From Syntrophotalea carbinolica DSM 2380 (lineage in GTDB: Bacteria; Desulfobacterota; Desulfuromonadia; Desulfuromonadales; Syntrophotaleaceae), in assembly GCF_000012885.1 (NCBI RefSeq), contig NC_007498.2, positions 2,666,001-2,730,000 on the forward strand: a DNA stretch of 64,000 nt, given 5' to 3'. Numbering within the stretch: position 1 is the stretch's first letter; every line of letters begins with the position of its first letter. The translations under genes were made by a program, and so were the position numbers. This document shows positions 26,345 through 42,683 of the stretch, piece after piece. The notes beneath the pieces were generated by a model. That model did no database searches. It was not told where the DNA came from and worked only from the letters and a program-made list of their open reading frames with translations.

Positions 26345-26353
26345 GCGTAGTTT

Positions 26354-26605: not shown

Positions 26606-26797
26606 AACACCACCTTTCTGCACTCTACCGAACGCATTAGTATCTCAAACATAAACGGGCCGTATTAGGGCAGGGTTCAGATCGGATGTGATCTCAATAA
26701 AACAAAGAAGACCAATGCGAGTTGCCTGGTTCCGCCAAAGGTGGTAACTACGCCGTTTCGCCCCCCTCAAATCCTGGGGCCTGAAGCGGATTGGCAT

Positions 26798-26965
26798 TCA
26801 TTTCTGCAAAGATAAACACCTCTGTTCAAGCCGTCGCACCTGACGCTGCAGCCGCTGCAGACGTCCCTCTGTGCGTCTGGCATGCCAGTGTCTCTCGAGC
26901 ATACGCCAGCCGTCCTGTAGCCTCTGCTTTACATGCAGGTTCACCACCATGGCAAGGATATCCAT
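26798..26965 (-). CDS. 55-residue basic coiled-coil protein coupled to the olsF-like gene
   Basis: A short reading frame starting with MDILAMVVNLHVKQRL whose ATG shares its A with the TGA stop of the olsF-like gene, the classic arrangement for translational coupling. The product is a short hydrophobic start followed by a highly basic, heptad-like helix (RLQRLQRQVRRLEQR). It is unrecognised. A basic amphipathic helix could sit on the membrane surface near the acyltransferase, which is inference. It is too short to be found by length alone; support comes from the overlap and helix pattern. Confidence 0.5.
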   Translation of the reverse strand: MDILAMVVNLHVKQRLQDGWRMLERHWHARRTEGRLQRLQRQVRRLEQRCLSLQK

Positions 26966-28788
26966 CAGGCACACAACGCCTCCCGTTGACTGCTTAGCAG
27001 CCGCTGATAGGTGAAGAAGGCCTCGGCCTCTTCACGTCCCATGTAACGCTGGATGGTTTTCCGATCGGTCTGCAACAGATCGACCAGGATTAATCCGTCC
27101 AGCACATCGCTGAATTGCGGGTCGCGATTGAAAGTAAGCAGTTTGCCCCCCAGATTCAGGTAATGCCGCAGCAAAACCGGTATGCCTTTTTGCTGCACTT
27201 CGATATCGGCCACCAGCGGTGCCACCTGATCCATGCTGCCGCAAAAGGTGCGGGCCAGTTCCCCGCTGCAGCCGCGAATACGCGCCTTGGCGTGAAACGG
27301 TAGCCGAGGTTTTACCAGGCGTGAGAGTTGCGGCAACGGCAACTCGGCCTGCAGGGTGCCGGCAATCAGGCGCCGGGACAAATCGCTATAATCGCGGGAG
27401 ATACTGACCGGGCCGAACAACACCCGGTATTGAGGGTTCTTGACCACAAAGCGGCCGATGCCTTTCCACAGCAGCAACAAGGGGGAGTAGCTTTTCTGGT
27501 ACTCGGGCCGCACAAAGGAACGTCCCAGCTCCAATGCCGGACCTATGGCATCGAACAGGCGACGCCGAAATTTGAACAGGGTATGGGTATAGAGCCCCTG
27601 CTTGCCGAAACGTTTCAGCAGCGTATCGCAGCAGCCGACACGGTAGGCGCCGACCAACTCCTGTCGTTCGCTATGCCACAGGAACAGATGCAGGTAATCC
27701 TGATCGAAACGGTCCAGATCAAAGGAGCGCCCCGTACCCTCCCCTACGGCCCGGAAGGTCAGTTCTCGCAAACGACCGATCTCCAGCAACAGATAAGGAA
27801 TCTGGCCGGCTTCAGCCTGCCACACCTGCATGGGACCGTTCCGAACCAGCAGCTGCCCTTGAGGTAAGCGGGATACTTCAGCGGCCACCAGCTCTGTTGG
27901 CTGAGGCGAAATAACGGTCATCGGCTCGATATCGGTGGAGGGATTCAAAGGCCCCCCGACAGAATCGGCGGCGCCCAGAAGGTAGCTTCGCAGACGCAGG
28001 TAATCGATCCGTTCCCGATCGTCGGCGCACTGTTCCAATCGCGACCAGGGGATGAGACGACCGCCGCGGAAACGGACGGGACGCCCTTTATGCGCCAACA
28101 GCATGCGCCCCAGCAGCAATGTGCGTAGCCGCGGATGCATCAGCCCCGCCAGCTGGAATACCATGCCGTTGCGACCCGGAATATATACAGGGAGCACAGG
28201 AGCCCGGCAGTGACGAATCAAAGCCCCCACCGAAACCTGCCAGGGAGGATCGGCCACTTCGCGGCGCTGCAGCTGCAAGTGGGATACTTCGCCGGCCGGA
28301 AAGATCAGCAGCAAACCGCCATCGCGCACATGACGGATGGCCTGGCGCAGAGGACCGATATTGACACCGGTGCCTTGCGCGCCGCCCAAAATGCCGACCC
28401 CGATGAGGGCTTCGCGCAATTGGGGAATACGCTCCAGCAGACTGTTGGCCAGCACCTTGGTATCCGGACGCATTCGGCGCAGCGCCTCGAGCATGACCAA
28501 CCCCTCGACCGCGCCGAAAGGATGATTGGCCACGACAATGGCCGGACCCTGGCATGGGACCGGTTCCAGCCCCTCCCCCTCCGGCTCTCCCGTTACCTGC
28601 AGTTGCTCGAGCGCCGCCCGGCAAAAATCCTCGGGAGAGTCCCCGGCAGGCAACTGCCGATAAATATCCCGGCATTGCCGCACGCCGAGCAAACGTTCCA
28701 GCGGAGACATCACAACCTTTTTGACCAGAGGGTTTTGAGCCAGGGGCCAGGGAATATCGAAAGGATCGTACTGATTTTGCTGCGTCAT
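26965..28788 (-). CDS. olsF: Bifunctional ornithine-lipid-type acyltransferase (OlsF-like: LPLAT plus GNAT-like domain)
   Basis: A 607-residue fusion. The N-terminal half (about residues 75-240) is a lysophospholipid acyltransferase domain with ANHPFGAVEG, FPAGEVSH and APVLPVYIPGRNG. The C-terminal half (about 320-440) is the hemolysin/OlsB-type N-acyltransferase domain, with REYTFR-like RELTFRAVGEG, LFLWHSERQELVGAYRVG and ELGRSFVRPEYQ. This order matches OlsF of Serratia and Flavobacterium, which makes ornithine lipid in one protein: the C-terminal domain N-acylates ornithine and the N-terminal domain O-acylates the lyso-lipid. The amino acid headgroup is not proven. A direct-repeat box like that of the psd operon lies upstream. 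AGGAGG precedes the ATG. Confidence 0.82.
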   Translation of the reverse strand: MTQQNQYDPFDIPWPLAQNPLVKKVVMSPLERLLGVRQCRDIYRQLPAGDSPEDFCRAALEQLQVTGEPEGEGLEPVPCQGPAIVVANHPFGAVEGLVMLEALRRMRPDTKVLANSLLERIPQLREALIGVGILGGAQGTGVNIGPLRQAIRHVRDGGLLLIFPAGEVSHLQLQRREVADPPWQVSVGALIRHCRAPVLPVYIPGRNGMVFQLAGLMHPRLRTLLLGRMLLAHKGRPVRFRGGRLIPWSRLEQCADDRERIDYLRLRSYLLGAADSVGGPLNPSTDIEPMTVISPQPTELVAAEVSRLPQGQLLVRNGPMQVWQAEAGQIPYLLLEIGRLRELTFRAVGEGTGRSFDLDRFDQDYLHLFLWHSERQELVGAYRVGCCDTLLKRFGKQGLYTHTLFKFRRRLFDAIGPALELGRSFVRPEYQKSYSPLLLLWKGIGRFVVKNPQYRVLFGPVSISRDYSDLSRRLIAGTLQAELPLPQLSRLVKPRLPFHAKARIRGCSGELARTFCGSMDQVAPLVADIEVQQKGIPVLLRHYLNLGGKLLTFNRDPQFSDVLDGLILVDLLQTDRKTIQRYMGREEAEAFFTYQRLLSSQREALCA

Positions 28789-28814
28789 CGCGTTTGCCTC
28801 CTGCCGTGGAAAAT

Positions 28815-28875
28815 CGAAATCATGGGGAGACTAGCGCAGTGAAATTAGGGACAGGTTACAGAGGGGTTAATTTTT
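28815..28875 (-). promoter_or_regulatory. Promoter region with the same 11-bp-spaced box, upstream of olsF-like gene
   Basis: On the minus strand the heads AATTAAC, CTGTAAC and CCCTAAT begin exactly 11 bases apart (plus-strand 28866-28872, 28855-28861, 28844-28850). The first two heads are identical to those upstream of the psd operon while the 4-base spacers differ. The box is 56 bases from the start codon. Confidence 0.6.
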
Positions 28876-29049
28876 CATGGACATGCAGCGTCATGTGTCG
28901 TTCATACTTTGTTTCTGAAGAGAACCGAGCCGGTATGCTGTTTTCACATGGGTTGATTTGGTAAGATAAGATATCCCGCAGGGGATAGAAAAGAAGCCTC
29001 GATCTCGCGCCATAAATCTCGACCGCATGATGACCGAAAGGCCCTCTCC

Positions 29050-29880
29050 ATGTGCCAATTACTCGGAATGAACTGCAATGTACCGACCGATATCTGTTTT
29101 TCCTTTACCGGTTTCCGACAACGCGGCGGCTCCACCGATGTGCATTCCGATGGTTGGGGTATCGCATTTTTCGAGGGCAAGGGCGTACGGCTATTTGTCG
29201 ATCCGCAAGCCTCGGCCGAATCGACCATCGCTGAACTGGTGCGCAGCTATCCCATCCATTCCCTGAATGTGGTGGCCCATATCCGTAAAGCCACTCAAGG
29301 GGTGACCAGCCTGGAAAACACCCATCCGTTCATGCGTGAATTGTGGGGGCGCTACTGGCTGTTCGCTCACAACGGCAATCTGCCTCACTTCCAACCGCAG
29401 CTGGACGGCAGTTATGTCCCGGTCGGCAACACCGACAGCGAACAAACCTTCTGCTGGATGCTGCAAAGCCTGCGACAACGCTTCGGCACAGATGCACCAT
29501 CACGGCAGGAACTGTTTGACGCCCTGGGCGAACTGAGCCTGCCACTGGCCGGCATGGGAATATTCAACTTTCTGCTATCCAACGGCGATTGTCTGGTGGC
29601 TCATTGCTCGACCGAGTTAAGCTACATCATTCGGCGAGCACCTTTTGCCGAGGCGCATCTCAAAGATCAGGATATCAGCATCGATTTCAGGCAGGTCACA
29701 ACTCCCGAGGATCGGGTTGCGATCATCGCAACGCAACCTCTGACCGACAACGAACCGTGGGTCAACATGCGGCCGGGCACCCTGTGGATGTTCCATGATG
29801 GCGAGGTGGTCGGCCAGCAAAACACGGTCCCCAGCCCGTTCAAGTCATTGGCTGAAATGCTCGATACAGAGAGGACATGA
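29050..29880 (+). CDS. Class II glutamine amidotransferase (YafJ-like)
   Basis: A 276-residue Ntn-hydrolase-type glutamine amidotransferase consisting of this domain alone. Cys2 is the catalytic nucleophile after Met removal (MCQLLGMN). Other landmarks are HSDGWGIAFF, VVAHIRKATQG, FAHNGNL and VGNTDSEQ, all typical of YafJ/DUF4072-like proteins. They release ammonia from glutamine or a gamma-glutamyl compound, but the physiological acceptor is unknown. The gene is divergent from the olsF-like gene and stands alone. AAAGG lies upstream of the ATG. Confidence 0.88.
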   Translation: MCQLLGMNCNVPTDICFSFTGFRQRGGSTDVHSDGWGIAFFEGKGVRLFVDPQASAESTIAELVRSYPIHSLNVVAHIRKATQGVTSLENTHPFMRELWGRYWLFAHNGNLPHFQPQLDGSYVPVGNTDSEQTFCWMLQSLRQRFGTDAPSRQELFDALGELSLPLAGMGIFNFLLSNGDCLVAHCSTELSYIIRRAPFAEAHLKDQDISIDFRQVTTPEDRVAIIATQPLTDNEPWVNMRPGTLWMFHDGEVVGQQNTVPSPFKSLAEMLDTERT

Positions 29881-29988
29881 ATGTTGATTTTAGTAAAGAT
29901 GCGGGATGCGCGGAGGGCATTTTCGCCAGGGGTGCCAGCCGGGGCCGGTGGTGTTGATGTTAAAATTGAAGATTCCAAGCTAGCAACT

Positions 29989-30200
29989 TCAAGACCGCGG
30001 GGTTGCGCCCCCGCCCGGCGCCTTACTCTTTTGATACGCGTCTAAAGAGTAAGCAGAAAAACGCGCCCCGACTCCTGGCCCGCCTGCGGCGGGTACCCTA
30101 CGCTGCACAACCGTCGGGCGGACGGAAGGGTTCGCTGCGCTCAGTCTTCCGTCTGTTTCGCCCGTCGGCCGCTCCACTCCGGCGGCGTCACAGGGGAATA
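29989..30200 (-). repeat. Interspersed GC-rich repeat, copy B
   Basis: A 212-base element in the 29881-30411 gap, the reverse orientation of copy A at 21535-21722 with the same landmarks in the same order. It contains a 10-bp perfect hairpin (CTTACTCTTT/AAAGAGTAAG, 30022-30053) of which copy A keeps only one arm. The rest of this gap shows no gene. Confidence 0.8.
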
Positions 30201-30411
30201 CTAATGCAGAGATAAAGTCTTTAAAACAACCGAACAGCACCGGTTCAGGCAACATTAAGGTTAAAGTTTCGAGACTTCAGAAAACCCAAATCTTTTACAA
30301 AATATTGAAGCACCCAACAAATCTGTTGCAAATCTGATGTACTTGCTTCATATACAGGTATTTTTCTTTGACTCCGTCCCGACCTGCGGCCCAACCGCAT
30401 GAGGCAACTTT

Positions 30412-30870
30412 ATGAAAATGGAAATCGGCTGGCGCGAATGGCTGGCCCTACCCGAATTGGGCGTGCCCGCCATCAAAGCCAAGGTCGACACGGGAGCGCG
30501 CACCTCGGCGCTGCATGCGTGGTTTATCGAGCCTTTTGACAAGGACGGCGGGAAATATGTGCGTTTCGGCCTGCATCCCCTGCAACGCCGCACCGACATC
30601 TCGATGACATGCGAAGCTCCCGTCAAGGACCGGCGGCTTGTTTCCGACAGCGGCGGACATAGGGAAATGCGCTATATTATCGAAACCATGGTCTGCTTCG
30701 GAACGCAGCAATGGTCCATCGAAATCACCCTTACCAACCGCGAGAGTATGCTGTTTCGCATGCTGCTGGGCCGAACTGCGATGACCGGCCGGCTGATCGT
30801 CGATCCGGCTGCATCCTATCTGGGAGGCCGTGGTTTGGGCAAGATTTACGAGCAGGAGGACTGGCAATGA
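30412..30870 (+). CDS. RimK-associated retropepsin-like protease (Zn_protease/RimB family)
   Basis: A 152-residue protein of the family annotated as ATP-dependent zinc protease, in fact a retropepsin-like fold. The active-site signature is [13 protein letters not shown] near residue 24, with the catalytic Asp, and [15 protein letters not shown] near the C-terminus as the second conserved block. Such proteins are regularly encoded next to RimK and are thought to remove or trim the glutamates that RimK adds. Its stop overlaps the rimK start (ATGA), so the two are translationally coupled. GAGG precedes the ATG. Confidence 0.88.
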
Positions 30871-31772
30871 AAATCGGCATCTTATCGCGGAACCCCGAAC
30901 TCTATTCCACCCGCAAGTTGTATGAAGCCGCCATCATCCGCGGGCACCAGGCCAGGATTATCGATCCGCTGCTTTGCTATATGACCATCGCCTCGCAACG
31001 CCCCACCATTCACTACAAGGGCGAGGAGTTGACCGGCTTCGACGCCATCATACCGCGCATCGGTGCCTCCATAACCTTTTATGGCACAGCCGTGGTGCGC
31101 CAATTCGAAATGATGAACATCTACAGCGTCAACGAATCGGTAGCCATCAGCCGCTCGCGGGACAAACTGCGCAGCCTGCAGTTGTTGTCCCGCAAAGGCA
31201 TCGGCCTGCCGCACACCTGCTTCGCCCATTCGACCAGATATACCAAGGACTTGATCAACCAGGTCGGCGGGGCTCCGCTGGTCGTTAAGCTGCTGGAAGG
31301 CACGCAAGGGATCGGTGTCGTTCTGGCCGAAACGCAAAAAGCCGCCGAAAGCGTCATCGAAGCCTTCAAAGGCCTCAAAGAACAGATCCTGGTCCAGGAG
31401 TTTATCGAGGAATCCGGCGGCGCCGACATCCGCTGTCTGGTGGTGGGAGGCAAAGTCGTCGCCGCCATGAAACGTCAGGGCGCCGAAGGCGAGTTCCGCT
31501 CCAACATCCATCGCGGCGGCAAGGCCACAGTGGTCCGCCTGACCCCGGAAGAACGAGCCACCGCCGTACGCTCGGCCCATATCATGGGGCTGAACGTGGC
31601 GGGGGTCGACATCCTGCAATCCAACCGCGGTCCCATTGTCATGGAAGTCAACTCTTCGCCAGGTCTCGAAGGCATCGAAACCGCCACCGGCAAAGATGTC
31701 GCTGATGAAATTATCCGCTTCATCGAAAAACATACCAAACCCGGCAGGACCAAAACCCGTGGCAAGGGTTGA
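30867..31772 (+). CDS. rimK: RimK-type ATP-grasp glutamate ligase
   Basis: A 301-residue ATP-grasp enzyme. It starts [18 protein letters not shown], has the N-terminal domain motif [19 protein letters not shown]-binding segments [19 protein letters not shown] and [18 protein letters not shown], and the Mg-binding end [20 protein letters not shown]. The family adds glutamates to the C-terminus of ribosomal protein S6 or to other gamma-linked substrates. Length and motifs match E. coli RimK closely. The ATGA overlap with the protease-like gene, and the small glycine-rich and Zn-ribbon genes that follow, suggest one transcript. Confidence 0.93.
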
Positions 31773-31813
31773 AACATTTTGCCTCGATCCTGCTCGGAAG
31801 AAAGGATTTCAGC

Positions 31814-31978
31814 ATGATTAAAGGATACGTGATACTGCTTGCGATCTCCGCCGGCGGTGCCGCGGGATGGGGGCTGGGTATCAAAATCGGCTTCATGGCA
31901 GCCTATTTTCTTTCCGTGGCTGGCTCGGCCACCGGTTTGTATGTGGGCCGTCAGTTCGGACGAAACTATATGGATTGA
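31814..31978 (+). CDS. 54-residue glycine-rich membrane protein
   Basis: A small protein made almost entirely of one hydrophobic, glycine-zipper-like hairpin (AISAGGAAGWGLGIKIG, then SVAGSATGLYVGRQFGR). ATG at 31814 follows AAAGGA, 41 bases after the rimK stop. Its function is unknown. The GxxxG-type spacing suggests oligomeric packing in the membrane. It lies between rimK and a Zn-ribbon regulator in a tightly packed set. Confidence 0.65.
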   Translation: MIKGYVILLAISAGGAAGWGLGIKIGFMAAYFLSVAGSATGLYVGRQFGRNYMD

Positions 31979-31995
31979 ATCTCCGTTATCTCCCC

Positions 31996-32346
31996 ATGGC
32001 AAAGGAGAGACTCCGAGTGAAAGACAAAATCCCGCCGATACCTGCCGAGAGGGGTGCTACCCTGCGCCGGCAGATCATGGAACTGCTGACACGACAGCCT
32101 ATGACGGCCAAAGAGATTTCCATGGCCATCGGCATCGGGGAAAAACAGGTATACCCGCACCTGGAACATCTGCAGCAGAGTTTGCGCCGACAAAACCGGT
32201 CCCTGCAGATCACGCCGCCATTTTGCAAAAAGTGCGGTTTCACTTTCGCCAAACGCACGCGTCTGAAAAAACCGGGTAAATGCCCAGTATGTCGAAGCCA
32301 GACGATCGAAGAACCGGTTTTTGCCCTGCCCGAAGTTGATTCCTAG
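31996..32346 (+). CDS. Winged-helix transcriptional regulator with C-terminal zinc ribbon
   Basis: About 116 residues: an N-terminal ArsR-like winged helix (LRRQIMELLTRQPMTAKEIS, GEKQVYPHLEHLQQSL) and a C-terminal zinc ribbon with two Cys-x2-Cys pairs (CKKCGF and CPVCRS). This is the small HTH-plus-Zn-ribbon regulator family found in archaea and anaerobic bacteria, with unknown regulons. A GTG at 32017 with AAAGGAG upstream is an alternative start that would shorten it by seven residues. It is the last gene of the rimK set and could regulate it or the following redox regulator. Confidence 0.8.
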   Translation: MAKERLRVKDKIPPIPAERGATLRRQIMELLTRQPMTAKEISMAIGIGEKQVYPHLEHLQQSLRRQNRSLQITPPFCKKCGFTFAKRTRLKKPGKCPVCRSQTIEEPVFALPEVDS

Positions 32347-32409
32347 GACACAACATATCGCCGGTTTTGCGGAGTGCGTCCCCACCCGAAAAGGCTGAGA
32401 CAACTCTCA

Positions 32410-32450
32410 CAAAGTGTTTGACTTGCCTGTGGCAACAATGGCACACTTTG
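32410..32450 (+). promoter_or_regulatory. Inverted repeat, candidate operator upstream of the hydrogenase-like regulator
   Basis: CAAAGTGT (32410-32417) and ACACTTTG (32443-32450) form perfect 8-base half sites with centres 33 bases apart, about three helical turns. The site ends 60 bases before the start of the next gene and brackets a TTGACT hexamer that could be its -35. It could also be an autoregulatory site. Confidence 0.35.
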
Positions 32451-32509
32451 GCCATCGTCAGCTATCCTTTACGTGACCTAAGTTCCCTCCGTTTCGATCG
32501 GAATCATCG

Positions 32510-34753
32510 ATGGGCCATATCCAGACCGATACCCAGCGCTGCCGCAGATGCTATGCCTGCGTTCGCCATTGTCCCGTCAAAGCCATCCGCGTCACTCGGC
32601 AGGGCACCGATCTGAGTCCCGGTCGCTGCATCGGTTGCGGACGCTGTCTGCAAATCTGCACCCAGCAAGCCCGCCATGCTGTCAAAGATCTGGAACGTTG
32701 CCGCCGGCTGCTTAAACGCAGAGAGCCGATGGCGGCGCTTCTGGCGCCATCCTTTCCGGCCTACCTTGGCGACATGCGCCCGGGGCAGATGATCGCCGGA
32801 TTGCGCCAGCTTGGTTTCGGCATGGTGATCGAGGGCGCCTGGGGGGTGGAACTGCTGGCCGGGAGATTAAAAATCGAACCGTCCACCCGCCCCCAAACAC
32901 CGACCATCCTCAGCCACTGCCCGGCAGTCATCGCGCTGGTGGAGCGCCACTTTCCCCAATTGTTGCGCAACATGGCACCGCAGGTTTCGCCCCTGCCGGC
33001 AGCAGCCCGGGCCTTACGCGCTGCCCACGCAGGACCGCTGCGTGTTGTCACCATAAGTTCCTGTTTTGCGGCAAAACTGGAAGCCGTGGACGATCAATTT
33101 CAGGATACCGTCGATGCGGCCTTGACCTTCTCAGAGCTTTCCGAGCTATTCGAGGAATCGGGCATTACCCCGACTTTGTTAAGCGATGCCCCCTTCGATG
33201 GTACCGGCGCTGCTGACAAACGGCTGTTTCCAGTAACGGGAGGCGCCCTGGCCACACTGCTGCCGGATTTTTCCGGCGACACTGGAGTCGTCCTTTCCGC
33301 GGAAGGCCCCCACAACGCTTTGGACATATTACGCGATCTGGCTGCAGGTCGTATCAGACCGTCCGTGGTCGACTTGCGATTATGTCGAGGCGGCTGCACA
33401 GGCCCTTGCGATTCTGCCAGCCGGCTATCGCCCTTCGCCAGGAGCAACCTGGTGCAGGAATTTGCCCGTCAGCCCCAAAAGCATCTATCCGACGGCGCTT
33501 ATCTGGGAACGGCTTCGGGCCTGTCTTTGGAACGAACCTTCAGTAATCGACAACCTCTTCAGGAACATCCCAGCGGTGAAAATATCCGCCGGGTTCTTCA
33601 TTCCACGGATAAATTCGCCCAGCGTGACGAACTGAACTGCGGTGCGTGCGGTTACGACACCTGTCGGGAACACGCAACCGCCGTCTGCCGTAACCTGGCA
33701 CTGGAAGATATGTGCCTGCCTTATTTCGTCAAACGCCTCGAGGCTGAAAAACTACGCCTTGAACGCGCGCTGCAACTGGCACGTCACGTGCCGGACGATA
33801 CCCTGATCGGTTCGGATGCTCCCATGCGCCAGATCCTGGAACTGGCGCAGGAGTTGGCCCCCGGTGATAAACCCATCCTGCTGCGCGGCGAGGCAGGCAC
33901 GGGCAAGGAAACCCTGGCGCGCATCATCCACCGTCGCAGCCATCGAAGCGAACAGCCACTGGCGACCGTTAATTGTACCGCGCTTGGCAACCGCCAACTG
34001 AAGGAAGAATTGTTCGGAGGCCGGCCGGATGCAAAAAAGCCCCAAGGCCTGCTGGAACTCGCCGCCGGTAGCAGCTTGCTACTGGATGAAATCGGCGATG
34101 CGAGTTTGGAGGTGCAACAAGCGCTGCTCGATTGGTTGAACCGGGAAAAAGCCCCTTGGGCCGATGTGCGTCTGATCGTCACCAGCCACCGGGACCTGGA
34201 ACAGGGCATCAGGGAGGGTTGGTTCAACAGCGAACTGTTTTTTCGTCTCAGCCTCTGCACTCTGACCTTACCGCCATTGCGCAACCGTCTGGATGCCCTA
34301 CCCGAATTGGCACGGCAACAGTTGCAACGTGCGAGTCGACGCTACAACAAAAAAATGGTGTCCATCGACCCGTTGGCCCAGGAAACCTTAAACCGTTACC
34401 ACTGGCCGGGCAACCTCCGGGAACTGGCATCGGTGATCGAACGGGCCGTCGCATTGAGTGAAGAAGACGTTTTGCACCAGGAACATCTGAATCTGTCCTT
34501 GACGCCTGCGGCAACGGAGCCACCCTCGTCAAGCACCGAGACAACCAGTGGATTTCGGGCCCGTCGTGGCCATCAAATGGAAATGATCGAGCGGGACCTG
34601 CTGGAACGTTATCTGCGAGAAGCATGCGGCAATGTATCCGCCGCGGCGCGTCGCGCTAACTTGCCGCGACGCAGCTTTTACCGCTTAATGGAACGTTACG
34701 GCATCAAACGCCGGCAATTTGTAAACCGTAGGCGCTCCGAACCAAAGCCCTGA
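32510..34753 (+). CDS. Ferredoxin / [FeFe]-hydrogenase-like sensor fused to AAA+ and Fis-type HTH (GAFTGA absent)
   Basis: A 747-residue cytoplasmic regulator. Order: two 4Fe-4S motifs (CRRCYACVRHCP, CIGCGRCLQICTQ, residues 10-55); an [FeFe]-hydrogenase-like domain (about 75-350) keeping cluster Cys residues in LSHCPAV, ISSCFAAKLEA and LCRGGCTGPC; an FeS domain (NCGACGYDTCREHA, about 380); an AAA+ domain with Walker A GEAGTGKET and Walker B LLLDEIGD; and a C-terminal Fis HTH (NVSAAARRANLPRRSFYRLM). Between ELFGG and the Walker B the usual GAFTGA loop is missing, so it probably cannot activate sigma-54. It may sense H2 or ferredoxin redox state and act with sigma-70 or as a repressor. ptsP follows after 33 bases. 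Confidence 0.88.
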   Translation: MGHIQTDTQRCRRCYACVRHCPVKAIRVTRQGTDLSPGRCIGCGRCLQICTQQARHAVKDLERCRRLLKRREPMAALLAPSFPAYLGDMRPGQMIAGLRQLGFGMVIEGAWGVELLAGRLKIEPSTRPQTPTILSHCPAVIALVERHFPQLLRNMAPQVSPLPAAARALRAAHAGPLRVVTISSCFAAKLEAVDDQFQDTVDAALTFSELSELFEESGITPTLLSDAPFDGTGAADKRLFPVTGGALATLLPDFSGDTGVVLSAEGPHNALDILRDLAAGRIRPSVVDLRLCRGGCTGPCDSASRLSPFARSNLVQEFARQPQKHLSDGAYLGTASGLSLERTFSNRQPLQEHPSGENIRRVLHSTDKFAQRDELNCGACGYDTCREHATAVCRNLALEDMCLPYFVKRLEAEKLRLERALQLARHVPDDTLIGSDAPMRQILELAQELAPGDKPILLRGEAGTGKETLARIIHRRSHRSEQPLATVNCTALGNRQLKEELFGGRPDAKKPQGLLELAAGSSLLLDEIGDASLEVQQALLDWLNREKAPWADVRLIVTSHRDLEQGIREGWFNSELFFRLSLCTLTLPPLRNRLDALPELARQQLQRASRRYNKKMVSIDPLAQETLNRYHWPGNLRELASVIERAVALSEEDVLHQEHLNLSLTPAATEPPSSSTETTSGFRARRGHQMEMIERDLLERYLREACGNVSAAARRANLPRRSFYRLMERYGIKRRQFVNRRRSEPKP

Positions 34754-34786
34754 CCGCCTCCCAATGGCCCAGAAAGGCCTCACGCC

Positions 34787-37135
34787 ATGACGCCGAAAAC
34801 CAAAAACCACATAGGACTACGCACCCTTGAAGATATCAGTACCCTGATTCTCAAGTCCCATGACCTGCACGAAACCCTGCAAAATATCGTATCGGTCGTT
34901 GCCCGCCGCACTTTGTCGGACGTCTGTTCCATCTACCTGCTGGATGACGATCGCCAAACCTTGCGCCTGCTCGCTACCAAGGGTTTGTCCCGGCGCGCCG
35001 TCGGTCGCGTCACCATGAAGGTCAGCGAAGGCTTGACCGGCCTGGTGGTGGAAAAGCGCCAGGTCGTCGCCCTGCAGGAACCGCAGAATCATCCACGTTA
35101 TCGCTATTTCAAGGAAACCGGCGAAGAGAGGTATCACAGTTTTCTGGGGATTCCGCTGTTCGACCGCAACATCCCGATCGGAGTGCTCGTCATTCAAAGT
35201 CGCGCACCGCGACGGTTCAGCGACGAAGACATCAGCGGATTGTCGACCATCGCCTTTCAGGTGGCCTCCATCGTGGTGAACGCCCGCCTGCTTGACTCCA
35301 TCCAGCATAAGGAGGCCCAGGCGAACCGCTACGTCGAAGCCTTACGGCAGGCCGCCGGTGCACCGCGTCCTTCGCAGCCGGAGGAGACCGCCGAAACCAC
35401 CAGGGAAAGCGCACTACGAGGGGTGGTGGCCTATCCCGGCCTGGCATCCGGCCCCGCCCATGTGATGTCTGCAGAACACGGACTGACCGACATTCTTGAC
35501 GAGGAGGTGCTCGCACCGGAACAGGAAAAAGCGCTGCTTGAAGAGGCCCTCGAAAAAACCTGCATCCAGACCATCTACCTGGAAAAACGCATGGCCGAAA
35601 GACTGTCCCAGGCCGATGCCAGCATTTTTCACACCCACCTGATGATTCTCGAGGACCGGGCCATGCAGCAACGTCTCCAGGAGGAGATCGAAGAGGGACA
35701 CGGTGCGCGCTACGCAATTGAAAAGGTCATCGGTAATTACGTGGAAGCCTTCGAGCGGATGGAGGATCCCTACCTGCGAGAGCGCGCAGCCGATATGCGC
35801 GATATCGGCCGCCGCCTACTGGCCAACCTGGCCGGGCAATCTCCGCACACGCTGCACTTAAAACACCCGGGCATTCTCATCGCCCGGGAAATCCTGCCTT
35901 CGGACATGGCCGCCCTCGATCATGAACAGATTCGCGGTATTGTCACGGAGGCCGGGGAGCGCAATTCCCACGCTGTCATCATGGCAAAGTCGCTGGGGAT
36001 CCCGGCGCTGGTCGGCGTGCGCGGCATCCTGAAAAAAGTGGCCCCCGAGGAACATGTGATTCTCGATGCCAACTCGGGCCTGCTGCACATCAGCCCCGGT
36101 TCCCAGGTTGCGGATGAATATCACAGACTTGAGGAAGATGCCGGCCGGCAACTGCATCAGATCGAAAAATTCCGCGACCTACCCGCCCAGACCCGGGACG
36201 GGGTCAAGGTGGTGCTTCGCGCCAATGTCGGCCTTGTCAGCGACATCGACATCGCCCGCCGCAACGGTGCCGAGGGCGTTGGACTTTATCGTACCGAATT
36301 CCCCTATATGATCCGCCCCGACTTTCCCAGCCGAGACGAACAATACCAGCTCTATTCAAGGGTGGTAAAGGAATTCAACGGTCTGCCGGTGACCATCCGC
36401 ACCCTCGATATCGGCGGCGACAAGGCGTTGCCCTATTTCAAGCCTCCTCACGAAGACAATCCGTTTATGGGCTGGCGCTCCGTCAGAGTGTCCCTGGACA
36501 ACCGGGATATTTTCCGCACCCAGATCGAAGCCATACTCATGGCCGCCTGCCATGGTCCGGTCAAGATGCTGTTTCCGATGATTTCGGGGATTGAAGAAAT
36601 CCGGGCCTGCAAAGCCGTTGTGGAGGAAGCCCGCCAGAATCTGAGCAGCCAGGGAATAGCTTTTCAGGCCGATGTACCGCTGGGCATGATGGTGGAAGTT
36701 CCGGCGGCCGTTCAATTGGCGGAGCGACTGGCCCGGGAAGTCGACTTTTTCGCCCTGGGAACCAACGATCTGATCCAGTACCTGCTGGCAGCCGATCGGA
36801 ATAACGCCCTGGTCAATCGTTATTACGATCCTCTGCATCCGGCAGTGTTGCAGGTTCTGCATAATATCGCGAGCATTGCCAAACGGCAGAACAAGGGCCT
36901 GTGCCTGTGCGGTGAAATGGCCAACGACCCTCTTAATCTGCTGGCGCTGATCGGCATGGGGATCAGGGAATTTTCCATGGCGGCGCCTTTTATCCCCCGC
37001 ATGAAAATGATGCTCAGCCGCATATCGAGCCTCGAAGCCGAGGATGTCGCAAAGCAGGTGCTGGAGATGACAGAAAGCAGTGAAATTCGCGCCAGCTTGA
37101 CAAAACTGCTTAAAACCACCGACAGCTCTTTCTGA
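34787..37135 (+). CDS. ptsP: PEP-protein phosphotransferase of the nitrogen PTS (GAF + enzyme I)
   Basis: A 782-residue EI-Ntr: a GAF domain (about residues 15-165), the HPr-binding/N-terminal domain (about 205-330), the phosphohistidine swivel domain with active His in ERNSHAVIMAKSLGIPALVG, and the PEP-binding barrel (KMLFPMISGIEEI, FALGTNDLIQY, LCLCGEMANDP with the catalytic Cys). It moves phosphate from PEP to NPr, and on to EIIA-Ntr, in regulatory phosphorelays. The partners are not in the window. The start codon follows the regulator gene by 33 bases, so co-transcription is likely. AAAGG precedes the ATG. Confidence 0.94.
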   Translation: MTPKTKNHIGLRTLEDISTLILKSHDLHETLQNIVSVVARRTLSDVCSIYLLDDDRQTLRLLATKGLSRRAVGRVTMKVSEGLTGLVVEKRQVVALQEPQNHPRYRYFKETGEERYHSFLGIPLFDRNIPIGVLVIQSRAPRRFSDEDISGLSTIAFQVASIVVNARLLDSIQHKEAQANRYVEALRQAAGAPRPSQPEETAETTRESALRGVVAYPGLASGPAHVMSAEHGLTDILDEEVLAPEQEKALLEEALEKTCIQTIYLEKRMAERLSQADASIFHTHLMILEDRAMQQRLQEEIEEGHGARYAIEKVIGNYVEAFERMEDPYLRERAADMRDIGRRLLANLAGQSPHTLHLKHPGILIAREILPSDMAALDHEQIRGIVTEAGERNSHAVIMAKSLGIPALVGVRGILKKVAPEEHVILDANSGLLHISPGSQVADEYHRLEEDAGRQLHQIEKFRDLPAQTRDGVKVVLRANVGLVSDIDIARRNGAEGVGLYRTEFPYMIRPDFPSRDEQYQLYSRVVKEFNGLPVTIRTLDIGGDKALPYFKPPHEDNPFMGWRSVRVSLDNRDIFRTQIEAILMAACHGPVKMLFPMISGIEEIRACKAVVEEARQNLSSQGIAFQADVPLGMMVEVPAAVQLAERLAREVDFFALGTNDLIQYLLAADRNNALVNRYYDPLHPAVLQVLHNIASIAKRQNKGLCLCGEMANDPLNLLALIGMGIREFSMAAPFIPRMKMMLSRISSLEAEDVAKQVLEMTESSEIRASLTKLLKTTDSSF

Positions 37136-37144
37136 CTGGCGGCG

Positions 37145-39769
37145 TTATTTACGAAAGGCCCTCAGCACCGCCGGGCTATCGCCCGTGACGCGTTGCAGAA
37201 ATTCCGCCATCTTGGGGCCTTCCATGGGCAAGGCCAGATAATAGCCCTGCCCGCAGGGGCAACCGAGTGTGCGCAGGGTATCGAGTTGTTCGCGGGTTTC
37301 GATCCCCTCGGCAACCACCTCCTGTCCCAGCGAATCCCCCATGGCGATAATGGCTGCGGCGATCGCTTCGTCATGGGGATCGTTCACCACGTTTTTCACA
37401 AAAGCGCGATCCATCTTTAACTTGGTGAAGGGAAACTTTCTCAGGTAACTTAAGGAAGAATAGCCCTGCCCGAAATCGTCCACAGCCAGGCTGATCCCGG
37501 ACTGCCGCAAGACCTTGAACATATTAAGTGCATGCTCGGCGCTCTGAATTACGAAACTTTCGGTAATCTCCAACTCGAGCCACTCGGCAGCCAGACCATA
37601 CTGCTTAAGGACCCGGAAAACCATTTCGATAAATCCTGATTGCCGGAACTGGCGTGCGGATATATTGACCGCCACGCGTATCGATGGCAGGCCCTGTTCT
37701 CTCCAGGCTATGACCTGCCTGCAAGCCTCCTGCAATACCCACTCACCGATAGGTACAATCAGCCCCGTATCCTCGGCCAGGGGGATAAATTCACCGGGTC
37801 CCACGATCCCCCGCTTCGGATGCTGCCAGCGCAACAGGGTTTCAAGGCATTCCACCTTGCCAGTGTGCAAATTGAATTCCGGTTGATAGAACAGCATGAA
37901 CTGTTCCAGGTTGAGCGCCTGGCGCAGGTCCGTCTCCAGATAGAGCCGTTCCTCCACCTCGACATTAATCGAAGGGATAAAAAACCGGTAGGTATTACGG
38001 CCCTGCTCTTTCGCAAAATACATGGCACTGTCCGCCGCCTTCAGAATGGTCTGCGCATTTTCGCCATGCTTGGGGTACAAGCTTATGCCGATGCTACCGG
38101 TGAGATAGAATTGCTGTTCGCCGATCCGCAGTGGCTGGGCAATGGCTTCCAACAGTTTTTCGGCCACATGTTTAACGCCGGTGCTATCCGCCACATGCTC
38201 CAGCAAAACCAGAAACTCATCCCCGCCGAACCGCGCCACCACATCCGTGTCACGCAGCATTTCCTGAATTCGCCGGGCCACCTCCATGAGAATTTCGTCA
38301 CCCGTCTCATGCCCCAGGGACTCGTTGAGATTCTTGAACCGATCCAGATCGAAAATCAACACCGCAACCATGGTATCGCGCTGGTTGGCCCGCCCGATAT
38401 AGGTTTGCAAAAGCTCTATGGCCTTGAGTCGATTGGGCAAACCGGTTAATACGTCATGATAAGCGAGGTAATTCAGTCGCGCCTTTTGTTTTCGCAGCAT
38501 GGTATCGGCTGCCTTGCGTTCGGTGATATCCCGCACCAGAACGAAAAACAATACCTGGTCTTGGATTTCCAGATGCGTAACGCTGACATCGCCCACAAAG
38601 GTGCGCCCACGATTACCTGTAAACGTGGCCTCCATGGGGACGGGGGCCGCCGTACTCAGTCGCTGGGTGCGTGACAGAAGGTTGCCGATGGCGGCATCGG
38701 TAATATCCGACCAGCTCAGGGATAAAAGTTTTTGACGGTCAAAACCAAGAACTGCACAGGACTGGTGATTGACATCGACAAACCGGCCCTGCTCTTCACA
38801 TAGGAAAAAGGCATCGGCCGAGAATTGAAACAAATGCTGAAAGAGATGTTCGCTATCGCGCTGTCTCTGCCGGGACCCTGCCAGTCTGTCCCAGATAACC
38901 AGGATACAGACTCCAGCCATAAGACTGACCACGAGCAACCAGATATGAAAGTAAATAATGGATTGCAGCCCCTGCGCATAGATATCCCTGGAAAGATTGG
39001 TGCCAATCACGGCCGCGGGTACGCCGAATATATCCCGGAACAATACCCGTGCTCGTATGCGTGTTGCATCGACAACCCGCAATAGGATCTCAGGGGCGGC
39101 GGTGCTTTGCTCCGACCAGGAAGGCCACGATGGACCGGAATGAAGCCGGCCGAACTCCAGAGACTGTTCTGCCTTGGCACCGAGCCTGTCCAATTCCCTG
39201 CTATCCAGTAAACGCCCCATGAGCAACGCTCCCCGCGATGGCCCCTGGCCTTCGCCGGTCAGTATCGGCTGCCAGGACAGCATCAGAAGTCCCTGAGGCA
39301 AACGCAGCAAACCCGTTACTCCCCGTCGTTGATGTTCGACAAGGGTTGCGAAACTCTCCGTGGTAAAATGATCTTGCAGCCCCACATACATGGGGACAGC
39401 CCCATGCCTGATTAAGTCATAAGCCTTGCCGGCAACCGGCAGCCCTTGTTCATCCAGAAAAAGAATGACATTGACGTTCAGCGTTGAAAAAGTGCTGTCC
39501 ACCACATTGCTTGTTATAAATGATGGATCGCGGGTCTGCATAAACGCATAAGCATCATCCCAGTTGGCCCAATCCTTGGTCATGCGTTCAAGAAATGCCA
39601 GGTTTTCCTGATAAACGCCAACCACACGATGCAGGGTTTCATAGGCACGATCATTTTCCAAACGCGTAAAGCTTTTGAGAAAGACACCACGATTAAGCAT
39701 CAGCAGGGTGCCATTCAAAAAAAGAATCACCAGCCCCATACCTAAAAATCGTTTCCAAGACCACTTCAC
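37145..39769 (-). CDS. CHASE4-PAS-GGDEF-EAL membrane protein
   Basis: About 874 residues: TM1 near 8-28, a periplasmic CHASE4-like domain with the DWANWDDAY signature, TM2 near 250-275, PAS (FQFSADAFFLCEEQGRFVDV), GGDEF (DLDRFKNLNESLGHETGD; FGGDEF), and EAL. The EAL domain has ETLLRWQHP in place of EALLRW, keeping the catalytic Glu, with NISARQF, ELEITES and DDFGQGYSSLSYL intact, so phosphodiesterase activity is likely; the cyclase site also looks intact. The GTG at 39769 is chosen because GAGGAG precedes it and TM1 follows at once; an ATG nine residues downstream of the frame start is also possible. It converges on ptsP with only nine bases between. Confidence 0.9.
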   Translation of the reverse strand: MKWSWKRFLGMGLVILFLNGTLLMLNRGVFLKSFTRLENDRAYETLHRVVGVYQENLAFLERMTKDWANWDDAYAFMQTRDPSFITSNVVDSTFSTLNVNVILFLDEQGLPVAGKAYDLIRHGAVPMYVGLQDHFTTESFATLVEHQRRGVTGLLRLPQGLLMLSWQPILTGEGQGPSRGALLMGRLLDSRELDRLGAKAEQSLEFGRLHSGPSWPSWSEQSTAAPEILLRVVDATRIRARVLFRDIFGVPAAVIGTNLSRDIYAQGLQSIIYFHIWLLVVSLMAGVCILVIWDRLAGSRQRQRDSEHLFQHLFQFSADAFFLCEEQGRFVDVNHQSCAVLGFDRQKLLSLSWSDITDAAIGNLLSRTQRLSTAAPVPMEATFTGNRGRTFVGDVSVTHLEIQDQVLFFVLVRDITERKAADTMLRKQKARLNYLAYHDVLTGLPNRLKAIELLQTYIGRANQRDTMVAVLIFDLDRFKNLNESLGHETGDEILMEVARRIQEMLRDTDVVARFGGDEFLVLLEHVADSTGVKHVAEKLLEAIAQPLRIGEQQFYLTGSIGISLYPKHGENAQTILKAADSAMYFAKEQGRNTYRFFIPSINVEVEERLYLETDLRQALNLEQFMLFYQPEFNLHTGKVECLETLLRWQHPKRGIVGPGEFIPLAEDTGLIVPIGEWVLQEACRQVIAWREQGLPSIRVAVNISARQFRQSGFIEMVFRVLKQYGLAAEWLELEITESFVIQSAEHALNMFKVLRQSGISLAVDDFGQGYSSLSYLRKFPFTKLKMDRAFVKNVVNDPHDEAIAAAIIAMGDSLGQEVVAEGIETREQLDTLRTLGCPCGQGYYLALPMEGPKMAEFLQRVTGDSPAVLRAFRK

Positions 39770-39921
39770 GGTTGCTATCTCCTCGATACAGGGCATCTTG
39801 CCTAAGGCTCTCGCGACCAAGCCATGTAAAGATTAATGTTTTTCATTTGTCCTTAGCTAAAGATTATGAGACACGGCTAAATTGTCAAGGCTTTTGCACT
39901 CCCGAAAAAATCGACATCAAC

Positions 39922-39961
39922 GGGAAAAGCCCGTCAACCTGATGGCTGACGGGCTTTTCCC
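39922..39961 (-). terminator. Terminator downstream of valS
   Basis: A 15-bp perfect inverted repeat (arms 39922-39936 and 39947-39961, 10-base loop) containing AAAA/TTTT within the arms, 65 bases after the valS stop. It probably also shields valS from the divergent gene's region. Confidence 0.8.
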
Positions 39962-40025
39962 TGATAAATCCGTTGAAAATCACAACGGCCGATATTTGGA
40001 AATGATGTAGCTCTAAAACGTACTG

Positions 40026-42683
40026 CTATTGCAACGCTGCGAGTTTCTCCAGACCCTGCTTCAAAATGGACAGTTTCTCCTCGGCATCGGCCAATTTCTG
40101 GCGATCTTTCTCGAGGACTGCGGCCGGAGCTTTGGCCAGGAACGATTCGTTGGAGAGTTTTTTACTGAACATGAGTACGTCCTTCTCCACCTTGGCGATC
40201 TCTTTGTTGAGACGCTTCTGCTCCTCGTCCAGATCGATCAAACCGGCAAGGGGCAACAGAATCTCGATATCCCCGGCAACCTGCGTGGCTGCCTGGGCGG
40301 GACGCTCGACGGCCACCCCGAAAGCAAGGTCGTCGATCCGTGCCAGACTTTTAATATAGCCTTCGCCGGCGGCCATCACCTCGGCAGCCTTGCTTGTTTT
40401 GCAATCGAGCACGGCGGCAATACGCTTGCCGGGCGGAACGTTCATCTCGCCGCGAATATTGCGCACCCCCTTGATGACGTCCATGATCCGTTCCATGTGG
40501 GACGCTCCCTGTCGATCTTCGGGCAACTCCGATACAGTGGAAAAGGCGGCCGACATAATCGATACGGCCGGACGTTCGCCGGGCAGAGCCTGCCAGATTT
40601 CTTCCGTGACAAACGGCATAAGAGGATGCAGCAGGCGCAGCAGCTGTTCGAGCACGGTGTACAATACGGCCTGCGAGGTCGCCTTGCGAGCCGCATCTTC
40701 GCCGTACAAATCGTCCTTGCTCAGTTCGATATACCAGTCGCAGAACTCATGCCAGGTAAAGGCATACAAAACGCTGGCGGCTTCATTGAACTTGTATTCT
40801 TCCAGTGCCTTCCCGGTTTCGGCGGCGACATCGATCAAGCGTGTCAATATCCAGCGCTCGGCAAGGGTCAACTGGCAGTCGTCCAGATCGATTCCGGAAG
40901 GATCGAAATCCTCCAGATTCATGAGAGCGAAACGGCTGGCATTCCAGAGTTTATTGACAAAGTTGCGATACCCCGCAATGCGATCGACGGACAGTTTTAC
41001 GTCTCTGCCCTGTGCGGCAAAAGCCGCGAGAGTAAAACGGAACGCATCGGTACCGTATTCGTCGATGACGGTCAGGGGATCGATGACGTTGCCCTTGCTC
41101 TTACTCATCTTCTGCCCCTGGGCATCCCGCACCAAGGCATGAATATAGACATCCTTGAAAGGCACCTGCCCCATGAACTTGAGGCCCATCATCATCATCC
41201 TGGCCACCCAGAAAAACAGAATATCGAAGCCGGTGACCAGGCAGGAGGTCGGATAGAATTTCTCCAGGGCCACAGTCTTATCCGGCCACCCCATGGTGGA
41301 GAACGGCCATAAAGCGGAACTGAACCAGGTATCGAGGACATCGGTTTCCTGCCGCAGTTCTGTCGCGCCGCAATGGCTGCAGGCGGTGGGATCCTCACGG
41401 GAAACGGTCACTTCGTTGCATGCTGCGCAGAACCATGCGGGGATACGGTGTCCCCACCAGATCTGACGGCTGATACACCAGTCGCGGATATTGAACATCC
41501 ACTCGAAATAGGTTTTTTCCCATTGCTGGGGAATGATCCGGGTCTGCCCGGTCTGTACCGCTTCAATGGCTTTTTCCGCCAAAGGCTGCACATTGACATA
41601 CCATTGCAGACTCATATAAGGCTCGATAACGGTTTTACAGCGGTAACATTCGCCGACGGCATTGAGATGCTCTTCGGTCTGTTCAAGCAAACCGGCGGCA
41701 TCCAGATCGGCAAGGACCCGGGTGCGTGCTTCAAACCGTTCGAGTCCCTGGTAGCGACCGCCGTTGCCGTTGACGACACCGGACTCGTCGAAGATGTTGA
41801 TAAATTCAAGATCGTGCCGTTTACCGATTTCAAAATCGTTGAAATCGTGGGCCGGCGTAATCTTGACCGCGCCGCTGCCGAATTCCTTATCGACATATTC
41901 GTCAGCGATGATGGGAATCTGGCGATCCATCAACGGCAGCATGATGAACTTCCCGATCAGGTCGGCATACCGTTCGTCTTCCGGATGCACGGCAACGGCG
42001 GTATCGCCGAGCATGGTCTCCGGACGCGTGGTGGCAACCACCAGGTGGCGATCGGTGCCCACCACGGGGTAACGCAGGTGCCAGAGGTTACCCTTCTGAT
42101 CCTGATGCTCCACTTCGAGATCGGAGAGGGCCGTATGGCAGCGCGGACACCAGTTGATCAACCGGTTGTCGCGATAGATCAGCCCCTCTTCGTAGAGGGT
42201 GACAAACACTTCCCGCACGGCTCGGGACAGTCCCTCATCCATCGTAAACCGTTCGCGCTCCCAATCACAGGAAGCCCCCAACCGCTTGAGCTGATTGATG
42301 ATCTGCCCGCCGGACTCGGTGCGCCATTGCCATACCCGGTCGACGAACCCTTCCCGGCCTAAGTCATGCCGGCTGCTGCCTTCCGCCGCCAATTGTTTTT
42401 CCACCACATTCTGTGTGGCGATGCCGGCATGATCCGTTCCGGGTTGCCACAACACTTCGTGACCATCCATACGCTTCCAGCGCGCCAGAATATCCTGCAG
42501 GGTATTGTTAAGAGCATGCCCCATATGCAGCACGCCGGTAACATTGGGAGGAGGGATTACAATGGAAAAAGGGTTCTTGGGAGAATTCTCATCCGCATGA
42601 AACAAGCCATTTTCAGTCCAGAATTCATACCATTTGGCCTCGACATCGTGAGGCTCATATCCTTTGGGAAGTTTCGGTTCCAT
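40026..42683 (-). CDS. valS: Valyl-tRNA synthetase
   Basis: An 885-residue class I synthetase charging tRNA-Val. The HIGH motif is HMGHALNNTL near residue 45, KMSKS is KMSKSKGNVIDPL, and an editing (CP1) domain with AVHPEDERYADLIGK lies between them. The C-terminal 65 residues form the coiled-coil arm typical of ValRS. A zinc-binding Cys pair pattern (CNEV, CSHCG) in the insertion is typical of the bacterial form. ATG at 42683 follows AAAGGATG; 14 further upstream codons lack homology. A strong terminator separates it from the response regulator gene upstream. Confidence 0.96.
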   Translation of the reverse strand: MEPKLPKGYEPHDVEAKWYEFWTENGLFHADENSPKNPFSIVIPPPNVTGVLHMGHALNNTLQDILARWKRMDGHEVLWQPGTDHAGIATQNVVEKQLAAEGSSRHDLGREGFVDRVWQWRTESGGQIINQLKRLGASCDWERERFTMDEGLSRAVREVFVTLYEEGLIYRDNRLINWCPRCHTALSDLEVEHQDQKGNLWHLRYPVVGTDRHLVVATTRPETMLGDTAVAVHPEDERYADLIGKFIMLPLMDRQIPIIADEYVDKEFGSGAVKITPAHDFNDFEIGKRHDLEFINIFDESGVVNGNGGRYQGLERFEARTRVLADLDAAGLLEQTEEHLNAVGECYRCKTVIEPYMSLQWYVNVQPLAEKAIEAVQTGQTRIIPQQWEKTYFEWMFNIRDWCISRQIWWGHRIPAWFCAACNEVTVSREDPTACSHCGATELRQETDVLDTWFSSALWPFSTMGWPDKTVALEKFYPTSCLVTGFDILFFWVARMMMMGLKFMGQVPFKDVYIHALVRDAQGQKMSKSKGNVIDPLTVIDEYGTDAFRFTLAAFAAQGRDVKLSVDRIAGYRNFVNKLWNASRFALMNLEDFDPSGIDLDDCQLTLAERWILTRLIDVAAETGKALEEYKFNEAASVLYAFTWHEFCDWYIELSKDDLYGEDAARKATSQAVLYTVLEQLLRLLHPLMPFVTEEIWQALPGERPAVSIMSAAFSTVSELPEDRQGASHMERIMDVIKGVRNIRGEMNVPPGKRIAAVLDCKTSKAAEVMAAGEGYIKSLARIDDLAFGVAVERPAQAATQVAGDIEILLPLAGLIDLDEEQKRLNKEIAKVEKDVLMFSKKLSNESFLAKAPAAVLEKDRQKLADAEEKLSILKQGLEKLAALQ

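Follow-up and report, generated by a model that had tools for sequence, protein, structure and literature searches.

Results

A regulator without a GAFTGA loop

We analysed a stretch of 64,000 nucleotides of Syntrophotalea carbinolica DSM 2380 (NC_007498.2, positions 2,666,001 to 2,730,000 of the forward strand), here called the window, which carries a gene for a 747-amino-acid (aa) regulator followed, after a short gap, by ptsP. A sequence-only reading of the window had described the regulator as two ferredoxin (Fd) motifs, an [FeFe]-hydrogenase-like domain and an FeS domain joined to an AAA+ ATPase and a Fis-type helix-turn-helix (HTH), with good Walker motifs and no trace of the GAFTGA loop by which enhancer-binding proteins (EBPs) touch sigma-54, and the open reading frame (ORF) and its Pfam matches bear out both the build and the missing loop (Table 1). 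Exactly 18 residues (about 19 had been estimated) separate ELFGG from LLLDEIGD, and a search for an equivalent elsewhere found no GAFTGA-like string anywhere in the protein. The loss of the loop is not a property of this domain build; it is confined to one bacterial family, where it co-occurs with the loss of a sigma-54 promoter and of a putative small RNA (sRNA).

Table 1. Features of the regulator locus. Coordinates are those of the 64-kb window; residues of the AAA+ domain are named in PspF numbering.
Feature	Position	Strand	Basis or remark
-35-like TTGACT (5 of 6)	32418..32423	+	pair with the -10 lies below promoter-scan cut-off
Operator palindrome TGTGGCAACAATGGCACA, one mismatch, 82 bp before start codon	32428..32445	+	candidate binding site
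-10-like CACACT (3 of 6), overlaps operator	32442..32447	+	mostly CACAAT in outgroup
Regulator gene, Fd-Fe_hyd-FeS-AAA+(no GAFTGA)-HTH_8, 747 aa	32510..34753	+	ORF and Pfam
Two [4Fe-4S] ferredoxin motifs, aa 1-57	32510..32680	+	Pfam Fer4 x2; 8 Cys kept in 6/6 family members
[FeFe]-hydrogenase-like domain, aa 73-297	32726..33400	+	Pfam Fe_hyd_lg_C (E 4e-37); retains four cubane Cys; residues of the [2Fe] pocket replaced
FeS domain, aa 375-404; Cys377, 380, 385, 402 (CX2CX4CX16C)	33632..33721	+	Pfam
AAA+ ATPase domain, aa 432-585	33803..34264	+	Pfam Sigma54_activat (E 3e-33); no R162 equivalent; sensor I altered
Walker A GEAGTGKET, aa 460-468	33887..33913	+	
L1 stretch, shortened and lacking GAFTGA; aa 505-522, flanked by ELFGG and Walker B	34022..34075	+	
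Walker B LLLDEIGD, aa 523-530	34076..34099	+	
AAA lid, aa 591-671	34280..34522	+	Pfam AAA_lid_14; sensor II Arg retained
Fis-type HTH, aa 690-730	34577..34699	+	Pfam HTH_8; strongest constraint among parts compared within genus
Gap between regulator gene and ptsP, 33 bp	34754..34786	+	
ptsP (GAF and PEP-utilising enzyme I, EI-Ntr)	34787..37135	+	usual downstream neighbour

The predicted structure (mean predicted local distance difference test score [pLDDT], 74.6; predicted template modelling score [pTM], 0.48; residues 1-56 poorly modelled) resembles [FeFe]-hydrogenases in its first part (about residues 11-347) and NtrC-type AAA+ domains further on (residues 429-664).

Loss of the sigma-54 motor is confined to one family

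Orthologues were found in 87 of the 136 genomes searched of the order Desulfuromonadales, a count that includes a few regulators cut by contig ends and one copy (genome G124) in two pieces; 81 of these genomes lie outside the window's family, the Syntrophotaleaceae, and form our outgroup. Within the family, 6 of 14 genomes have a full-length orthologue. The outgroup regulators are readable as a frame in all genomes except G023, and all 80 readable ones keep the loop, as G[AS]F[TSN]GA, together with Walker A and B, N64, R162, R168, sensor I and sensor II. In the six family regulators the loop is absent throughout, the R162 arginine finger has become Asn or Ser in every one, and sensor I has changed in every one from TN to SH, SR or SS (SH in the window protein). 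Other losses are scattered: the sensor II Arg is gone from four of the six (the window protein keeps it), the Walker B Asp has become Glu in two, among them the regulator of G001, a second genus of the family, N64 has become Ser in one, and R168, kept in five including the window's, is His in G001. Walker A is present in all six with its Gly and Lys unchanged.

The absence of the loop is more than chance, being common to all six family members, all of which have Walker A, while 19 of 20 other AAA+ regulators of the same genome carry G[AS][FY]TGA; the twentieth (L192, G000:C1:3174363-3175919) has GAFTDA in its place. In a tree of the sensor domain (38 rows: 6 from the family, 6 from other orders and 26 from the outgroup, taken as every third of 77), all family sequences lie on the same side of a branch whose Shimodaira-Hasegawa-like approximate likelihood ratio test (SH-aLRT) value is 100, the G001 regulator (L016) forming a long branch of odd composition. 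Because the six members read from other orders also keep the loop, as GAFTGA or GSFTGA, we infer that it was lost once, on the family's stem.

The sequence-only reading had expected no activation at sigma-54 promoters, and with the arginine finger and sensor I affected as well we regard the loss of this activity by the window protein as close to certain. The protein could in principle still activate sigma-54 promoters through another loop, and its AAA+ fold is predicted to be intact (Z 28.2 and root mean square deviation 1.7 against NtrC1, 1ny5); this is extremely improbable, however, given that the loop and R162 are lost in all six and that the downstream gap holds no sigma-54 site.

The presumed ancestral target is absent from the downstream gap

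The neighbour check that the sequence-only reading had suggested showed that 17 of the 18 compared loci have ptsP adjoining the regulator (L001 and L079 are one contig, and in L075 the regulator frame itself was not picked). Of the 24 outgroup loci read first, 19 have a ptsP start after the regulator. Between the two genes the outgroup has palindromes of the form TGTGYCA-N4-TGRCACA and a sigma-54 site TGGCAC-N5-TTGC, followed by a putative terminated RNA. With a hand-written weight matrix, the sigma-54 score reaches at least 11 in 77 of 80 outgroup gaps (the others being L144 at 8.7, L163 at 8.5 and L173, cut by a contig end), compared with 0.6% of shuffled gaps; at least one palindrome stands in 79 of the 80 and two or more in 68, compared with 0.25% for shuffled gaps. 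The 33-bp gap of the window contains no sigma-54 site (best score 0.9).

The putative sRNA, of about 90-110 nucleotides, is predicted to fold into a stem at its 5' end and a terminator hairpin whose loop, CUCUCUCC, is C-rich and conserved. Seven sequences folded singly gave z-scores of -1.55 to -4.31; in the terminator stem 97.5% of cells are paired, a value reached by none of 500 shuffles, and three pairs are changed on both sides, a number reached by 24 of 500. The six loci tried had no match in Rfam 15. Of 134 genomes from the order, 91 have a match at E<=0.01 to a model built from 23 sequences (R1). Once G110 (E 0.008) and 11 second-rank matches in genomes that already had one are set aside, the sRNA occurs in all 81 regulator-bearing genomes outside the family, in 80 of them 179-675 bp downstream of the regulator and on the same strand, and in none of the six regulator-bearing genomes inside it (Fisher p 2e-9, uncorrected for kinship, the loss counting as one event). 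It is found neither in the window nor in five family loci, and the model, run with stricter filters, has no match at E<=0.01 anywhere in the 14 family genomes. With permissive settings and a limit of E<=1, weak matches appear in 8 of the 14 family genomes; the four places inspected (L087, L095, L089 and L092) have no CUCUC loop, sigma-54 site or palindrome.

Nine genomes have the sRNA without a full-length regulator, and in two of these (G065 and G099) the match looks spurious. In the other seven loci, which share the genomic setting, ptsP is next in six (it is uncalled in L107) and the sigma-54 site is kept in six; five have no palindrome within 2 mismatches, G107 and G108 alone having one. 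The palindromes thus tend to accompany the regulator, six of the seven loci having kept the sigma-54 site and five being without a palindrome.

We also considered whether the sRNA might be a mere ptsP leader and disfavoured the idea: no ptsP start was found in L061, L062, L065, L067 and L056 of the 24 outgroup loci, and in the first four of these the next gene found encodes a protein beginning MAGHSKWANIKHRKGAQDA, which we take to be YebC-like. In a search for sRNA targets, which yielded nothing useful, exact GGGGAGAGAG was commoner than its reversed control in five of five genomes, including the window's, which has no sRNA; among 30 of its 73 places that were inspected, three had a start codon and an ORF of >50 aa in reach, none convincing. 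In L109 (genome G132) a gene with a ferredoxin motif (3821-4708) lies between the sRNA and ptsP.

On the other side of the regulator, the window has a gene resembling those of ATP-dependent zinc proteases and, after it, a RimK-like ATP-grasp gene (30412-31772). ABC-transporter ATPase genes lie near the regulator in 14 of the 18 loci and are missing from window positions 24000-42000, so that the upstream side of the window locus has been rearranged.

An operator candidate persists in the regulator's own promoter

A palindrome of the same type overlaps the candidate promoter of the regulator gene (Table 1). Patterns with a 5-base gap miss it, and the N4 pattern was used. The 64-kb window has two palindrome matches with <=2 mismatches, where shuffled sequence gives 0.66 and holds two in 14 of 100 cases, so that the weight of the operator rests on its conservation: it stands between the -35 and -10 elements in all five members of the genus that have the gene, and the same arrangement, with TTGAC and mostly CACAAT, recurs in 20 of 24 outgroup loci. 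In the larger outgroup set a palindrome lies within 300 bp upstream in 69 of 80 loci, 58 of them with TTGAC just 5' of it, and 3 of the 11 loci without one have <40 bp of upstream sequence. With one pattern position loosened to fit, the operator is the only exact pattern match in its own genome. One-mismatch matches there are about as numerous as those of a reversed control, and candidates for a second operator near 2219820 and 19997, being at control level, were rejected.

The loop has thus been lost and the operator kept within the genus, beside a sigma-70-like promoter match that is weak; any likeness to TyrR would be one of mode, not of descent. The sequence-only reading had named TyrR as a precedent for loop loss combined with use of sigma-70, and the precedent holds and can be extended: TyrR, DhaR, HupR, VpsR and the NtrC proteins of Rhodobacter (R. 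capsulatus) and Caulobacter have lost GAFTGA and are reported or proposed to work at sigma-70 promoters (PMC3162934, PMC10274813). These precedents, and the Walker A kept in all six family regulators, speak for a sigma-70 activator that uses ATP binding without hydrolysis, like R. capsulatus NtrC, at its own or unrecognised promoters. We think this unlikely, because the only strong operator found sits in the -35/-10 spacer, a place typical of repression, and occupies the identical position in relatives with an intact activator.

The sensor part keeps its candidate cluster Cys and not its [2Fe] pocket

All 16 Cys for four [4Fe-4S] clusters are kept in the six family regulators and in 77 long outgroup sequences, except for seven ferredoxin Cys missing from L172, which is cut by a contig end. 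The equivalents of the cubane Cys C300, C355, C499 and C503 are present in 6/6 and 77/77, respectively. The residues of the [2Fe] pocket are another matter. The C299 equivalent is His in all 77 outgroup and all six family sequences; that of P354 is Ser or Ala in the 77 and Ser in the six; that of K358 is Gly in 76 outgroup sequences, Ser in one, and Ala, Gly or Thr in the six; that of M497 is Arg in 76 of the 77 and in the family; and that of E495 is Asp in all 77 and in the family. Nine HydS-type paralogues compared keep P354, K358 and E495. In sensory enzymes the [2Fe]-stabilising residues are described as conserved and C299, M353 and M497 as variable (PMC10055695, PMC8163306).

As a proxy for the maturases we took HydF, the search covering HydF alone within the order. 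HydF lies above cut-off in 18 of 134 genomes, including 13 of 14 in the family, the window's among them, and three without the regulator (G111-G113). No HydF above cut-off was found in 79 of the 81 genomes with an intact regulator, some of them incomplete; the two exceptions are G124 and G042, and the G042 match covers only part of the model and has internal stops. As far as HydF serves as a proxy, the intact orthologues of those 79 genomes are thus unlikely to carry an H-cluster.

The sequence-only reading had taken the protein for an H2- or ferredoxin-sensing regulator; sensing of H2 through a hydrogenase-type centre would make it an H-cluster sensor of the kind proposed for the sensory [FeFe]-hydrogenases in groups C and D. 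The four cubane Cys, the two Fd motifs, a CX2CX4CX16C motif as in HydS and the presence of HydF in the window's genome all fit such a sensor; the five pocket replacements, at positions of which the HydS-type paralogues keep three, and the lack of a HydF match above cut-off in 79 of the 81 genomes with the intact regulator make it very improbable, and we rejected H2 sensing through an H-cluster as the likely signal.

The window's genome has three further hydrogenase-type matches, in agreement with the three [FeFe]-hydrogenases given for Pelobacter (Syntrophotalea) carbinolicus in its genome paper (PMC3543383). A HydS-like protein (L005, G000:C1:2146433-2147656) has two Fd motifs, an Fe_hyd domain with SSACPA, GPCGAKKNE and ACRGGC, an FeS domain and a PAS-like part; among the matches listed, such proteins are encoded in at least 9 of the family's 14 genomes, and in L005, L018 and L025 the gene is followed by a similar one.

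The regulator is common in the class and precedes an hgtR-like gene in other orders

A regulator of this build had seemed unusual in the sequence-only reading, a view that the counts do not support: the regulator is found in 183 of 244 genomes of the class (E<=1e-120). The unusual feature is that one family has lost the loop along with the sigma-54 promoter and the sRNA. Judged by its full-length matches and the shared ptsP neighbourhood, the window protein belongs to a class-wide orthologous group. A search of the phylum matched 13 of 297 genomes, and four outside the class (G312, G347, G375 and G426) match over the sensor part only, at model positions of about 1-438, in frames of 557-757 aa with no AAA+ match; from these alignments, the sensor part serves other outputs there.

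In six loci read from other orders the match extends over nearly the whole length, palindromes flank the regulator gene on both sides, and the gene after the regulator encodes, in all six, a ribbon-helix-helix-like protein of 60-61 aa. A sigma-54 pattern search before this gene found no site in the six loci. By eye, L185, L186 and L188-L191 each show a presumed sigma-54 site with TGGCAC, the spacing GG-N10-GC and, as its -12 element, TGGC (TTGC in the window's order). In the open-licence literature we found no account of the sRNA, and the regulator appears only as an EBP gene upstream of GSU3364, for which a predicted RpoN promoter is given (PMC2725144). From its place alone, the small gene would be hgtR. 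In the window's order, 57 of 134 genomes have matches to HgtR-like proteins, all of them distant (at best 49 residues with 43% identity).

One study describes HgtR (GSU3364) as a known H2-induced protein that lowers citrate synthase, and did not detect HgtR in its own data (PMC7894505). This reported link to H2 makes reductant overflow a possible signal: the regulator would respond to such overflow, one source of which is H2 oxidised by other hydrogenases.

Constraint has moved from the AAA+ domain to the HTH

We compared the ratio of nonsynonymous to synonymous differences (pN/pS) as medians of 10 pairs within the genus and of all pairs of 24 outgroup genes; the values are rough because synonymous divergence (dS) is above 1. 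The AAA+ domain gives 0.355 within the genus and 0.154 outside, and the HTH 0.099 and 0.368, respectively, so that constraint has shifted from the one to the other. The FeS domain (0.126 and 0.240) moves with the HTH; the Fd motifs (0.192 and 0.201), the hydrogenase-like part (0.317 and 0.302), the lid (0.341 and 0.329) and the whole gene (0.318 and 0.300) barely differ. The protein seems to have been retained for DNA binding and its clusters, not for its motor.

These figures bear on the possibility that the gene is simply decaying, with no present function and with relics not yet lost. Erosion of the AAA+ domain does continue (the scattered losses of the sensor II Arg, the Walker B Asp and R168 described above), and most family genomes have no full-length copy. 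On the other side, the frame is open in 6/6 family regulators, the operator is kept in 5/5 of the genus, the whole-gene pN/pS within the genus is about that outside, and the HTH and FeS domain are under more constraint than they are outside. We consider decay without function unlikely.

A proposed redox-responsive repressor of its own operon

We propose that the protein descends from a sigma-54 activator. In relatives outside the family the regulator is accompanied by palindromes resembling enhancers, by a sigma-54 promoter and by a putative sRNA, a presumed target that mostly lies between the regulator gene and ptsP. On the family's stem the RNA and the promoter would have been lost and the loop and ATPase residues would have decayed, leaving a DNA-binding protein with Cys for four [4Fe-4S] clusters. 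The redox state of these clusters, for which reduced ferredoxin or a comparable carrier might be responsible, would alter how tightly the protein holds a single operator within the sigma-70-type promoter of its own gene, making it a redox-responsive (auto)repressor of a regulator-ptsP operon. Redox control by the clusters is suggested by the kept Cys and by the HgtR literature, and binding to the operator and co-transcription with ptsP would both be expected. That the remaining function is repression at the regulator's own promoter, passed on to ptsP, we consider probable.

Several observations weigh against this proposal. A full-length regulator was not seen in 8 of the 14 family genomes, four of which are 99% complete. 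The promoter scan omits the window's -35/-10 pair (8 of 12 positions matched, the -10 being poor at 3 of 6). G001 has the gene and no operator; that gene may be dying, the operator being absent and R168 and the Walker B Asp also lost. The intact Walker A in all six may mean that ATP binding still matters, and the His at the second sensor I place, where the motif is changed rather than lost, is also found in ZraR. The best match of the permissive sRNA search (E 0.004) falls in a regulator-bearing family genome, G008, where the place has no CUCUC loop, sigma-54 site or palindrome either. Lastly, G107 and G108 (L107 and L108) retain the sRNA, the sigma-54 site and a one-mismatch palindrome although a full-length regulator turned up in neither; control of the sRNA there may have passed to a different regulator.

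For the class as a whole, we lean towards a picture in which an Fe-S regulator without an H-cluster reads reductant overflow and drives a dedicated sigma-54 promoter whose output is specific to the order, being an hgtR-like small repressor in Geobacter-like bacteria and a new sRNA family with the C-rich loop in the window's order. In one family, which carries HydF and [FeFe]-hydrogenases, RNA, promoter and motor would have been lost together to leave a sigma-70 autorepressor. The order thus offers a natural experiment in motor loss, in which intact relatives, decayed descendants, the operator and the missing target can be aligned across 87 genomes. The comparison also puts forward a predicted family of putative sigma-54-dependent sRNAs without an Rfam entry and what may be a candidate sensor for H2-induced HgtR in Geobacter.

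Comparison with known systems

Like TyrR, DhaR, HupR, VpsR and the NtrC proteins of Rhodobacter and Caulobacter, the window protein is an NtrC-type AAA+ protein without a GAFTGA loop; unlike them, it is also without the arginine finger R162, and none of them is known to have an Fe-S or hydrogenase-like input. It shares a near full-length match and the palindromes with the orthologous regulator upstream of hgtR (GSU3364) in Geobacter-like bacteria, which differs in keeping GAFTGA or GSFTGA, and in preceding the presumed hgtR (so named by place only) in place of the sRNA. With HydS of the putative sensory [FeFe]-hydrogenases (groups C and D) it has in common the two Fd motifs, the hydrogenase-like domain and CX2CX4CX16C, but its [2Fe]-pocket residues are replaced and its output is an AAA+-HTH module. 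NARF/Nar1 proteins have a hydrogenase-like fold thought to bear only [4Fe-4S] clusters and no DNA-binding or AAA+ output; the fold is common to them and to the regulator, whereas the AAA+-HTH output is found in the regulator alone.

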